This document shows, one piece after another, positions 47,079-51,508 of a DNA stretch of 64,000 bases. Positions within the stretch are counted from its first letter, which is position 1; every line of letters starts with the position of its first letter. The stretch lies in contig NZ_CP088014.1 of NCBI RefSeq assembly GCF_021044685.1, positions 5,752,001 through 5,816,000 on the forward strand. The letters run 5' to 3'. The stretch comes from Bradyrhizobium daqingense. GTDB lineage: Bacteria; Pseudomonadota; Alphaproteobacteria; Rhizobiales; Xanthobacteraceae. The position numbers were made by a program, and so were the translations under genes. The notes beneath the pieces were generated by a model. That model had not been told where the DNA came from. It searched no databases and was given only the letters and a program-made list of their open reading frames with translations.

Positions 47079-48197
47079 GTGGACGCCATCAATCCGAGCG
47101 TGGAGCTGACCGAGCTTGAGCGGATCGACCACCTGCGTCTGATCCGCTCCGACAATGTCGGGCCGCGCACCTTCCGCTCGCTGGTCGATCATTTCGGCAC
47201 CGCGCGGGCTGCGCTGGAGCGGCTGCCTGATCTGGCGCGCCGCGGCGGTGCGCAGCGATCGGGTCGCATCTGTAGCGCGGATGAAGCGAAGGCCGAGCTT
47301 GCCGCAAGCCGCAAGTTCGGCATCGCTTGGCGCGCGCCCGGCGAGGACGGCTATCCGGCGCGGCTCGCAATGATCGACGACGCGCCGCCGCTGCTCGCCG
47401 TGCGCGGCGACACCAAAACCCTGATGCGGCCGATGATCGCGATCGTCGGCTCGCGCAATGCGTCCGGCGCCGGGTTGAAGTTTGCCGGCCAGCTCGCGCG
47501 CGAGCTCGGCGAAGCCGGCTTTATCGTCATCTCCGGCCTCGCCCGAGGCGTCGATCAGGCCGCGCATCGCGCGAGCGTCGAGAGCGGCACCATCGCGGTG
47601 CTCGCCGGCGGACATGACTGCATCTATCCGCCTGAGCATGGTGATCTCCTCACATCGATCCTCGATCACGAGGGCGCTGCGATCTCCGAGATGCCGCTCG
47701 GCCATGAGCCGCGCGCCCGCGACTTCCCTCGCCGCAACCGATTGATCTCCGGCGCCTCGCTCGGCGTGGTCGTGGTGGAAGCCGCTCACCGCTCGGGCTC
47801 GCTGATCACTGCACGCATGGCGGCCGAACAGGGCCGCGAGGTGTTCGCCGTCCCCGGCTCGCCGCTCGACCCGCGCGCGGCCGGCGCCAACGATCTGATC
47901 AAGCAGGGCGCGACTCTCGTCACGGAAGCCGCCGACATCGTCAATGCGGTGCAGCCGATCATGGAGCGCCCGCTGATGCATCCGGCTGAAGAGCCCGACA
48001 GCGAGCCATTCGAAAGCGATCCGCAAGGCCACGATCGTGATCAGATCACCGGCCTGCTCGGCCCCGCCCCCATTTCAATCGACGACCTCGTGCGGATGTC
48101 CGGCGCCTCGCCTGCGATCGTGCGCACCGTGCTGCTGGAGCTGGAGCTCGCCGGTAAGCTCGAACGCCACGGCGGCGGGCTGGTGTCCCTGCTCTAA
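47079..48197 (+). CDS. dprA: DNA-processing protein DprA (Smf)
   Basis: Loads RecA on incoming single-stranded DNA in natural transformation and is also kept in species not known to be competent. 372 residues from the GTG at 47079, which has AAGGAG five bases upstream; an ATG eight codons earlier is possible. A helical N-terminal region is followed by the Rossmann domain with [50 protein letters not shown] and [10 protein letters not shown], then a C-terminal winged helix ([15 protein letters not shown]). The stop overlaps that of the convergent HxlR gene. Confidence 0.95.
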
Positions 48198-48616
48198 GTT
48201 TCGTTCCGCGCGTCGAACCGCGTGCGAGCTGCTGCGATCTGCTGCTGGTGTTTGATCGCCCACTCGCCGAGCGCTTTTACCGGCTCCTGGAGACCACGGC
48301 CGAGATCGGTCAGCTCATAGTCGACGCGCGGCGGAATAGTTGGAAAGATCGTGCGCGTGACGAGGCCGTCGCGCTCGAGGCCGCGCAGCGTCAATGTCAG
48401 CATGCGCTGCGAGATGCCGTTGATCATGCGCTTGAGCTCATTGAAGCGCTTGGGCCCGTCGCTCAGCATCATGATGACGAACACGCTCCATTTGTCGCCG
48501 ACGCGGGACAGCACTGAGGCGACCCCGCGGCAGTCCGCGTGGTTGGGGTCCGGTATGGGATCCGGCCTCGGCGTGGCGGGAAAATCGGTGTTCGCAGGTT
48601 TCAAAGATGTGCCCAT
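48194..48616 (-). CDS. HxlR-family regulator, divergent from azoR
   Basis: 140 residues, a winged helix with [21 protein letters not shown] and [21 protein letters not shown] single conserved cysteine, C29 in NHADCRGV, precedes the helix; in the YodB and CatR regulators of Bacillus the cysteine in this position reacts with quinones and diamide. The gene is divergent from the azoreductase with 83 bases between starts, the same gene pair regulated by YodB, so repression of azoR lifted by electrophiles is a fair inference. An extra N-terminal Pro/Asp-rich stretch of about 25 residues is present. Confidence 0.9.
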
Positions 48617-48668: not shown

Positions 48669-48687
48669 TGGTTACAATCTTATACCA
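48669..48687. promoter_or_regulatory. Possible HxlR operator upstream of azoR
   Basis: TGGTTACAATCTTATACCA is an imperfect dyad (outer TGGT/ACCA, two more pairs near the centre) in the azoR-hxlR gap, 12 bases before the azoR start. Position suits repressor control of azoR; the symmetry is partial. Confidence 0.35.
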
Positions 48688-48699
48688 GGGTGACCCCAC

Positions 48700-49308
48700 A
48701 TGAAACTCCTCCATCTCGACTCCAGCGTCCTCGGCCCCCACTCCGTCAGCCGGCAGGTCTCCGCCGCCATCGTCGACAGGCTCCGGCAGGCGACGCCCAG
48801 CCTCGACATCACCTATCGGGATCTGACTGAGACCCCGCTCGCCCATCTCTCCGGTTCGCATCTCGCGGCCGCGCAAGGCGCACCCGCGCCCGCGGAACTT
48901 GCGCCCGACCTCGCCGCGAGCGCGGCTGCGCTGGATGAGTTCCTCGCCGCCGACATCGTCGTGATCGGCGCGCCCATGTACAATTTCACCATTCCCAGCC
49001 AGCTCAAGGCCTGGATCGATCGCATTCTCGTTGCGGGCAAGACGTTCAGCTATGGGGCGAATGGGCCGCAGGGCCTTGCCGGCGGCAAGCGCGTGATCGT
49101 GGCGATCTCGCGCGGCGGCTATTACGGCGCGGAGACGCCATACGTGGCCGGCGAACATCTCGAAACCTATCTGCGCTGGGTGTTCGGCTTCATGGGGATC
49201 ACCAACGTCGAATTCATCCCGGCCGACGGCATCCAGGTCGGGCCGGAGCACCGCGAAAAGGCGATCGCCGGCGCGCTGCAGTCGGCAACGAGTCTGCGCG
49301 CGGCCTAG
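48700..49308 (+). CDS. azoR: FMN-dependent NADH-azoreductase
   Basis: Reduces azo bonds and quinones by two-electron transfer, which avoids semiquinone radicals. 202 residues, flavodoxin-like fold. [21 protein letters not shown] binds the FMN phosphate, followed by [18 protein letters not shown] and SRGGYYG, the isoalloxazine loops. GGGTGA precedes the ATG. Divergent from the HxlR regulator and probably controlled by it. Confidence 0.94.
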
Positions 49309-49380: not shown

Positions 49381-50154
49381 TCAGCCCCGATAGATCGGCG
49401 CGCCGCTCGGAGAGGCGACCGCGCCGCCGTCCACGAAGATCTCCTGGCCCTGCACATGGGCGGAATCATCGGAGGCAAGGAACAGCACCGTCTTGGCGAC
49501 GTGATCGGTTTCACCGATGCGGCCGAGCGGCGTCGACAGCGCAATCCGTTTCTCGAACGCCTTCTCGGCCTCCGGCGTCGCGGTCGCGGGACCCCAGATC
49601 GGCGTGCGGATCGCGCCCGGCGCGACCACGTTGACGCGGATGCCGCGCGGCGACAGCTCCGAGGCCATGATCCGCGCCATCGCCCGCACGCCCGCCTTGG
49701 CAGCGCCGTAAGCGGAATAGCCGGGAATGCCGAGCACCGAGATCACCGAACCGTTGAGGATGATCGATGCATTGTCGTTGAGATGAGGCAGCGCGGCCTG
49801 AACAGTGAAGAACACGCCGGTGAGGTTGGTGCTGATGACCTTCTCGAAGACTTCCAGCGTCGCTGATCCCAGCGGCGTGCCGCCGGCGATGCCGGCATTG
49901 GCGAACACGATGTCGAACTTGCCGAACTTTTCCGCGCCCTGCTTGATCGCAGCTTCCGTCGCGGCGATGTCGGTCGCGTCGGCAGCCAGCGCGAGCGCGT
50001 TCGGCCCGAGCTCTTTTGCGGCCGCTTCCAGCGTCTCCTTGTTACGGCCGGTAATCACCACCTTGGCGCCCTCGGCGACGAACAGTTTGGCCGTCGCAAG
50101 CCCAATGCCGCTGTTGCCGCCGGTGATCAGGGCCGTCTTGTTCTTCAATCTCAC
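49381..50154 (-). CDS. Short-chain dehydrogenase/reductase
   Basis: 257 residues from a GTG at 50154 with GGAGG five bases upstream. NAD(P)-binding TGGNSGIGLATA, the NAG motif, the catalytic Ser in LNGSVIS, and Y-x-x-x-K in YSAYGAAK are present, with DGG near the C terminus: a classical SDR. TGRNK after the second strand suggests NADP preference. Divergent from an HxlR regulator with a striking inverted repeat between them. Such pairs often respond to quinones or aldehydes; substrate unknown. Confidence 0.93.
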   Translation of the reverse strand: MRLKNKTALITGGNSGIGLATAKLFVAEGAKVVITGRNKETLEAAAKELGPNALALAADATDIAATEAAIKQGAEKFGKFDIVFANAGIAGGTPLGSATLEVFEKVISTNLTGVFFTVQAALPHLNDNASIILNGSVISVLGIPGYSAYGAAKAGVRAMARIMASELSPRGIRVNVVAPGAIRTPIWGPATATPEAEKAFEKRIALSTPLGRIGETDHVAKTVLFLASDDSAHVQGQEIFVDGGAVASPSGAPIYRG

Positions 50155-50169
50155 GTTCGCCTCCAGTAG

Positions 50170-50220
50170 TTGCATGATAAAACTAGATTGCCATCTAGGG
50201 CATACGGTTTTATGATGCAA
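50170..50220. promoter_or_regulatory. Nested inverted repeats between SDR and HxlR genes
   Basis: Outer arms TTGCATGATAAAAC (50,170-50,183) and GTTTTATGATGCAA (50,207-50,220) match at 13 of 14 positions when inverted, enclosing a perfect CTAGAT/ATCTAG palindrome (50,183-50,198). It lies 15-66 bases before the SDR start and 55-106 before the HxlR start and is the likely operator of the regulator. Confidence 0.7.
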
Positions 50221-50275
50221 CCACACAAGCGCGTGATCGGCGGTCGCGCCGTGCGAGTGCGACAGGACGACATTG

Positions 50276-50743
50276 ATGGTGAAAAGAACGAGCTTTGAGG
50301 ACGACGCCTGCCCGATCGCGCGCTCACTGGACGCGCTCGGCGACTGGTGGTCGCTGCTGATCATTCGGGAGGCGCTGTTCGGCCTCCGCCGCTTCGGCGA
50401 GTTTCAGAGCAAACTCGGCATGGCCAAGAACATCCTGTCAGCGCGCCTGCGCGCGCTGGTCGACCACGGCATCCTGGCAACCGCCCCCGCTTCCGACGGC
50501 AGCGCCTATTCCGAATATGTGCTGACGCCAAAGGGCCGCGGCACCTTCCCGATCCTGGTGGCGCTGCGGCAATGGAGCGAGGAGTTCGACGACCACCCCG
50601 AGGAAATCGCAACCATTCTGGTCGATCGCGAGAAGGGTCGCCCGGTGAAAAAGCTGGAGATGCGCGCGGAGGATGGGCGGCTGCTCTCGCCGGCGGATAC
50701 GACATTGAAGCCGCGGCCCGCGCCTCGGCGACGGACGGCGTAA
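50276..50743 (+). CDS. HxlR-family regulator, divergent from the SDR gene
   Basis: 155 residues. A cysteine at C12 in DDACPIARSLDALGDWWSLLI occupies the redox-sensing position of HxlR proteins. The winged helix includes REALFGLRRFGEF and GMAKNILSARLRALVDHGIL, with the wing in YSEYVLTPKG. A C-terminal extension of about 40 residues is rich in Arg and Pro. It shares a promoter region with the SDR gene and is probably its repressor. The start could also be a GTG one codon downstream. Confidence 0.9.
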   Translation: MVKRTSFEDDACPIARSLDALGDWWSLLIIREALFGLRRFGEFQSKLGMAKNILSARLRALVDHGILATAPASDGSAYSEYVLTPKGRGTFPILVALRQWSEEFDDHPEEIATILVDREKGRPVKKLEMRAEDGRLLSPADTTLKPRPAPRRRTA

Positions 50744-50765: not shown

Positions 50766-50888
50766 CGTCATTGCGAGGAGCCCTTGCGACGAAGCAGTCC
50801 AGAATCCCTCCGCGGACAGATTCTGGATTGCTTCGCAGAGCCTGTCATCGGGCCGCGCGTAGCGCGGACCCGTTGGCTCGCAATGACG
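50766..50888. repeat. Dispersed palindromic repeat, family A (copy 2)
   Basis: Opens CGTCATTGCGAGGAGCCC and ends TTGGCTCGCAATGACG, with CCAGAATC and GATTCTGGATTG-type inner arms; longer than copy 1 at 2,615-2,685 because a middle GC-rich palindrome is present. It lies between HxlR and the flavoprotein gene. Confidence 0.85.
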
Positions 50889-50953
50889 GCGTGGGGGCTT
50901 GTGCAATAAATAGGCGGCGTCAAAATGGCGAGATCCTCCAAAGCGTCACCACC

Positions 50954-51508
50954 ATGCCCCTGCTCGCTATCGTCTATTTTTCGATTACCGGCACCACCGA
51001 AACGCTCGCGCATGCGGTGGCGCGCGGCGCGGCAGGGGCAACAGAGATCGCACTCTGCCGGATCGCTGGCGACGCCATCGTATCAGGTCGTTTCCACAAC
51101 GAGGCCTTGCTGGAGACGATCGACCGCGCCAGTGCAGTCGCATTTGGCAGCCCGACCTACATGGGCGGACCAGCGGCGCAATTCAAAGCATTTGCAGACT
51201 CTTCAAGCGACCGATGGACCAGGCAGCGATGGGCGGGCAAGATCGCAGCCGGATTCACGACCGGCGCCTGCGCAGGCGGCGATCAACTGCACACGTTGAG
51301 CTATTTTTCGATTCTGGCTGCCCAGCACGGCATGCTCTGGTGCGGACTGGATATTCCGGGAGGAGAGGATTCGAGCGGCCGGAATCGCTTGGGCAGCCAG
51401 CTTGGCTTGGCGACGCATCTGGTCGACCGCACCTTGCCACAGAGCGATTTGAGCACGGCCGAATATCTCGGCGAGCGCTTGGCGAAAATGGCAAGCCGCA
51501 ACGGCTAG
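50954..51508 (+). CDS. Flavodoxin-fold NAD(P)H oxidoreductase, WrbA-like
   Basis: 184 residues. FMN phosphate loop YFSITGTTETLA, isoalloxazine site GSPTYMGGPAAQFKAF, and GACAGGDQLHTLSYFSILAAQHGMLWCG, which matches WrbA's GGQE...HHGM region. WrbA enzymes reduce quinones with NADH. It lies next to the HxlR/SDR pair and could belong to the same quinone response, though it has its own start region and is separated by the family A repeat. Confidence 0.85.
   Translation: MPLLAIVYFSITGTTETLAHAVARGAAGATEIALCRIAGDAIVSGRFHNEALLETIDRASAVAFGSPTYMGGPAAQFKAFADSSSDRWTRQRWAGKIAAGFTTGACAGGDQLHTLSYFSILAAQHGMLWCGLDIPGGEDSSGRNRLGSQLGLATHLVDRTLPQSDLSTAEYLGERLAKMASRNG

Follow-up and report, generated by a model that had tools for sequence, protein, structure and literature searches.

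A predicted two-operator switch in the divergent gap between an SDR gene and an HxlR-family regulator gene of Bradyrhizobium daqingense

YodB of Bacillus subtilis (MarR/DUF24) prefers TACT-N7-AGTA, the azoR1 site, according to the portions of PMC8063818 available. It resembles the present system as an HxlR-family regulator of an oxidoreductase gene, with a short palindrome and an N-terminal sensing Cys at a helix start. The half-site differs, and the YodB core is 15 bp compared with 17 bp here. The present locus also has two sites in a divergent gap, and its protein carries a single Cys and extends about 50 residues past the Pfam match. HxlR of B. subtilis, the family founder, is described in the accessible parts of PMC7835342 as a dimer and has been solved with DNA. 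It differs as a formaldehyde-activated activator using Cys11 and Lys13, the Lys being missing from the protein studied here. Among the systems found, the layout has its nearest precedent in SydR of Sinorhizobium meliloti, a MarR-type redox-sensing repressor. According to the available portions of PMC11633110, SydR binds two inverted repeats of identical sequence that lie between divergent genes, each start site having one of them upstream. The SydR operator (TATCGCGATA) is unlike the sites described below, and SydR is aligned with OhrR in that source. The closest solved relative was PA1607/BosR of Pseudomonas aeruginosa (structure 2f2e), with 165.7 bits over residues 1-144 and shared AKNIL helix letters. 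For this protein, the portions of PMC9611778 examined report a biofilm phenotype and mention no operator. No published operator for the PA1607-like HxlR subfamily was seen among the papers listed from the literature searched, which mostly lacks subscription papers. PMC11623301 uses PA1607 as the name of a fungal strain, and PMC7567609 refers to a different yodB.

The window was the whole 64,000-nucleotide stretch of B. daqingense DNA analyzed, and positions are given within it. A gap of 121 bp (50155-50275) separates a minus-strand SDR gene from a plus-strand HxlR gene. The divergent layout given in a preliminary description was borne out, with the SDR read from GTG 50154 and HxlR from ATG 50276. 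The SDR product matched Pfam PF13561/PF00106, and its start column was GTG or ATG in the relatives compared. The regulator matched PF01638 at 62 bits (curated cut-off 20.8), as an HxlR-type winged helix-turn-helix protein, and about 50 residues extended beyond the Pfam match. Its score of 45.6 bits against the RrpB redox regulator model NF047364 lay below the NCBIfam cut-off of 175, and it was not assigned to that group. Ten HxlR-family genes were found in the genome. Features are collected in Table 1.

Table 1. Positions in the window of the genes, putative operators and promoter elements at the SDR/HxlR gap
Feature	Position	Strand	Remarks
SDR oxidoreductase	49381..50154	-	257 aa read from GTG; GGAGG at 50160-50164
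O1, 17-bp pseudo-palindromic putative operator AGTTGCATGATAAAACT	50168..50184	.	SDR side, overlaps candidate SDR -10
Candidate SDR -10, TATCAT	50174..50179	-	inside O1; putative, placed as in relatives
Inner CTAGAT/ATCTAG palindrome	50183..50198	.	present, chance level, not conserved as palindrome
Predicted hxlR -35, TTGCCA	50188..50193	+	promoter scan; same hexamer with 17-bp spacer commonest in relatives
Candidate SDR -35, ATGCCC (weak)	50198..50203	-	inside hxlR promoter spacer; putative, read from sequence
O2, 17-bp pseudo-palindromic putative operator GGTTTTATGATGCAACC	50206..50222	.	HxlR side, overlaps hxlR -10
Predicted hxlR -10, TATGAT	50211..50216	+	promoter scan; centre of O2
HxlR-family regulator	50276..50743	+	155 aa, single Cys12, Asn52 in proposed recognition helix

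The gap is very probably a back-to-back switch with two operators, in which HxlR dimers on O1 and O2 repress both genes and are released via Cys12. O1 and O2 would each bind one dimer of the adjacent HxlR protein. Occupation of O2 would cover the hxlR -10 and give autorepression, and occupation of O1 would cover the likely SDR -10. Derepression of the two genes would follow when the dimers are loosened by an electrophile or oxidant that acts at the conserved Cys12. We infer that HxlR binds the sites, that it represses instead of activating, that a single dimer occupies each site and that Cys12 is the sensor; the SDR promoter is likewise an inference. What was computed, as set out below, comprises the two sites with their symmetry, the arrangement of the genes, the match to an hxlR promoter, the conservation with several partners and the small number of close genomic matches.

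The 14-bp outer inverted repeat was located where the preliminary description had placed it, with TTGCATGATAAAAC (50170-50183) matching GTTTTATGATGCAA (50207-50220) at 13 of 14 positions. Extended to 18 nt, the arms (50166-50183 and 50207-50224) were 89% complementary with 23 bases between them. When the 121-bp gap was shuffled 3000 times with dinucleotides preserved, no shuffle gave a 13-of-14 repeat with a spacer of up to 60. Repeats of this kind are not confined to the gap: 23 overlapping 13-of-14 matches were counted across the 64-kb window, two of them being the outer repeat of the gap. The inner palindrome was also present as a perfect match (CTAGAT at 50183-50188, ATCTAG at 50193-50198). 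A perfect 6-bp repeat with a spacer of 0-8 occurred in 638 of 3000 gap shuffles, so the symmetry described earlier as exceeding chance does so for the outer repeat and not for the inner one. In relatives, the CTAGAT half varied and TTGCC and the following CTAG were mostly retained, as expected if this stretch holds a -35 element. The conserved letters fit a -35 region better than a palindrome. As a second operator, the inner palindrome was rejected, since shuffles place it at chance level and relatives do not preserve its palindromic form.

Each outer arm is a 17-bp pseudo-palindrome alone, and the starts of O1 and O2 are 38 bp apart. The nested anatomy of the preliminary description is accordingly replaced by two separate dimer-sized sites. 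Allowing up to one mismatch, RGTTNNANNATNNAACY matched only O1 and O2 in the window (4 matches over both strands), and 0 of 100 shuffles reached 4. An exact search of the 8-Mb genome located it at 9 places (12 rows when both strands are counted), compared with 2 rows for the reversed-pattern control. Two of the 9 places were O1 and O2 and two more lay upstream of other HxlR-family genes, leaving five others. A search with GGTTTYATNATGCAACC at up to two mismatches returned only O2 (0), O1 (2) and a place at genome position 7081625 (2). A wide regulon was rejected on the basis of these three places, and a local switch is the better reading, there being few close matches genome-wide. Further sites elsewhere in the genome are possible, given 28 matches to GGTTTYATNATGCAACC at up to three mismatches compared with 14 for the reversed control.

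The two other HxlR paralogs concerned carry AGTT-N9-AACT upstream, at genome positions 3324224 (L053) and 4251812 (L054), and these sites are perhaps their own operators.

A sigma-70-like match for hxlR (TTGCCA-17-TATGAT, 50188-50216) scored 10 of 12, where shuffles would yield 0.1 promoter-like sites. The same scan, at the threshold that gave this match, returned no minus-strand promoter. The weak minus-strand candidate in the window was ATGCCC-18-TATCAT (50203-50174), which would leave a very short SDR leader before the GGAGG at 50160-50164. Best candidates were also taken from 134 SDR-type upstreams (L079 and L092 omitted from 136), these best-of scores carrying no computed chance level. 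In 103 of the 134, the best plus-strand candidate placed its -10 in O2 and reached a score of 10 or 11; the best minus-strand candidate in O1 scored 7-8 of 12 in 119, 9 in five and less in ten. The two candidate promoters in the window interlock, each -35 lying within the spacer of the other, so polymerase could probably use only one of them at a time.

From 381 relatives, 80 named loci (L070-L149) were kept, all with Bradyrhizobium titles save one Bradyrhizobiaceae assembly. Both sites were visible in all 34 orthologous pairs from this and same-genus genomes, with a deviation at the last letter of O1 in L027. The preliminary description had staked its reading on conservation of the repeats upstream of homologous pairs; in this comparison, the outer repeat was conserved and the inner palindrome was not. 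A strict two-site pattern was present in 98 of 103 distinct ortholog upstreams, at spacings of 38 (82), 39 (14) or 37 bp (2). The five without two strict sites were L079, L092, L093 and L027, all four deviating in O1 alone, and the identical pair L149/L020. The upstream of this last pair was clipped by the 130-base limit, and both sites of L020 were visible in the pair comparison.

The search was then widened to family, order, class and phylum with a looser pattern (RGTY-N9-RACB) and a pair window of 30-45 bp. Among HxlR homologs of at least 48% identity, a pair was found in 120 of 131 distinct fetched upstreams, at 37-39 bp in 109 and at 32, 33, 36, 41 or 42 bp in 11. Below 48% identity, it was found in 3 of 25 fetched distinct upstreams. 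These 131 and 25 upstreams are the fetched loci, a subset of the homolog matches listed, many of which carried no locus, and omit L195, duplicate upstreams (same last 120 bases) and L070-L149. As controls, pairs occurred in 7 of 2048 other 200-bp segments taken from these loci and in 3 of 6600 mononucleotide-shuffled upstreams. The 11 homologs of at least 48% identity without a pair were L039, L193, L223, L226, L240, L242-L245, L250 and L251. L242-L245 had a single site each, and the divergent neighbor in L242 was a histidine-phosphatase-family gene. Letters at positions 1, 2, 14 and 15 (100%) and the limited letters at 0, 3, 13 and 16 were forced by the search pattern and were excluded from the evidence. 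The unforced letters were also symmetric, being mostly T at -1 and A at +17, and A at 6 and T at 10. Spacing varies between 32 and 42 bp, which weakens the case for a strict dimer-dimer geometry.

Just past O2, a GTGATC stretch (about 50223-50240) in the presumed hxlR leader was conserved in close orthologs. GTGAT was present in 46 of 47 pair-bearing loci of at least 70% identity, compared with 5 of 73 at 48-70%.

Outside the SDR group, the pair also stood between HxlR homologs and divergent genes for an alpha/beta hydrolase, an MFS transporter or an FMN oxidoreductase of the old yellow enzyme kind, and it was seen again next to HxlR homologs from further families and classes within the phylum. 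Partners were identified from ORFs, with Pfam run on 10 representatives and the others assigned by inspection. In seven loci (L036, L038, L042, L043, L201, L203 and L205), the ORF finder picked a wrong frame, and the partner was assigned only through kinship of the HxlR. Since the same pair stands beside HxlR homologs with different divergent partners, it goes with the regulator. The cognate HxlR is taken as the probable natural binder of O1 and O2 because the sites accompany its homologs. The earlier proposal of an HxlR operator serving both genes draws strong support from comparison across homologs; its nested anatomy found no support, and the SDR promoter remained a weak match.

Cys12 is the sole cysteine of the window HxlR. 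It was present in 103 of 104 aligned rows, the remaining row being empty, and is thus a conserved N-terminal cysteine. A second sensing cysteine near the C terminus, as in the two-cysteine switch of YodB, is absent from the window protein. Also absent is the Cys-x-Lys pair on helix 1 that serves as the formaldehyde sensor of B. subtilis HxlR, the window sequence being C-P-I. A quinone or aldehyde is a plausible candidate inducer.

Of the 104 rows, one was empty at residue 52, 89 had Asn there and 14 had Gly. Rows with Gly52 form one clade in the tree and carry GGTC or mixed half-sites. There were exceptions among Asn52 proteins (L165 and L190 with one GTC half-site each; L225 and L232 with GTC-type half-sites) and among Gly52 proteins (L202, L221 and L240, with mostly or only GTT half-sites). 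Residue 52 was consequently rejected as a proven specificity code, given the single clade and these exceptions in both directions. The correlation between residue 52 and half-site weakly favors the cognate HxlR as the binder. In HypR/YybR, its aligned counterpart is the Arg of TQRML, and we take the helix bearing residue 52 to be the recognition helix. For YodB, helix 4 and Lys48 are named in the accessible parts of PMC8063818.

Several other readings of the gap were weighed. A single long nested operator, with the 14-bp arms acting as two half-sites around the inner pair, would account for the inversion of the arms and their 89% complementarity across 18 nt. Taken singly, however, each arm is already a palindrome, and the inner palindrome is neither above chance nor conserved as such. 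In L047 and L196, moreover, one sequence is simply repeated in direct orientation, so the two sites need not be inverted. The probability of this reading is considered very small. The same direct-orientation copies also argue against an RNA hairpin, terminator or attenuator in place of a protein site. Any inverted repeat may fold, but by the proposed start sites neither transcript would hold both arms, and the promoter scan returned no terminator-like site; an RNA element is close to negligible as an explanation.

Activation of one promoter and repression of the other by HxlR would have a parallel in B. subtilis HxlR, whose positive response to formaldehyde proceeds via a Cys11-Lys13 crosslink in the portions of PMC7835342 available. 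Where that protein has Lys13, two residues after the cysteine, the window protein has Ile, and the 103 non-gap rows have I, V or S. Both sites also lie over proposed -10 elements, so protein bound there would obstruct polymerase, and mixed activation and repression is judged unlikely. O1 and O2 might instead be bound mainly by another regulator, for example one of the other HxlR-family proteins among the 10 of this genome, two of which have AGTT-N9-AACT sites upstream of their genes. Against this, the pair accompanies homologs of the window HxlR with several partners and in other families and classes, and a different main binder seems very unlikely. The preferred reading, repression of both genes by HxlR dimers at two separate sites, most likely describes an ordinary divergent HxlR-type switch with a predicted double operator.

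What is surprising is that the two-site layout stays so constant within a phylum even as the regulated gene is exchanged. At 37-39 bp, the spacing amounts to about 3.5-3.7 turns, and two dimers would therefore sit on nearly opposite faces. The spacing may reflect cooperation between dimers or only promoter geometry; either is compatible with the layout. Tentatively, the PA1607-like HxlR subfamily might carry an old cassette, consisting of the regulator, two operators of 17-19 bp (about TGGTT-N9-AACCA) mostly 37-39 bp apart, and interlocked divergent promoters. This cassette would have been kept across families, orders and classes with its output gene exchanged (SDR, old yellow enzyme, alpha/beta hydrolase or MFS transporter). 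The spacing may then place two dimers on opposite faces as one unit, and residue 52 (Asn/Gly) may help to set the fourth base of the half-site. With the consensus and the near-fixed layout, a direct target would become predictable for many members of the subfamily, possibly including the structurally solved PA1607. Residue 52 is singled out as a candidate for DNA specificity, and the window SDR is linked to a likely thiol-based sensor.

Three further observations were made near the locus. A second HxlR-family gene lies about 1.6 kb away, divergent from an FMN azoreductase-like gene (48194-48616, minus strand; 48700-49308, plus strand). The gap of this pair contains TGGTTACAATCTTATACCA (48669-48687), a TGGT-N11-ACCA pseudo-palindrome with ends resembling those of O1 and O2. 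An inverted repeat 3' of hxlR (50790-50850) resembles a dispersed repeat, with similar letters near other HxlR genes of the same genome. A flavodoxin-like/FMN reductase ORF (50771-51508, plus strand) was listed from TTG; its true start is probably an ATG near 50955, since the domain match begins only at residue 67-74.
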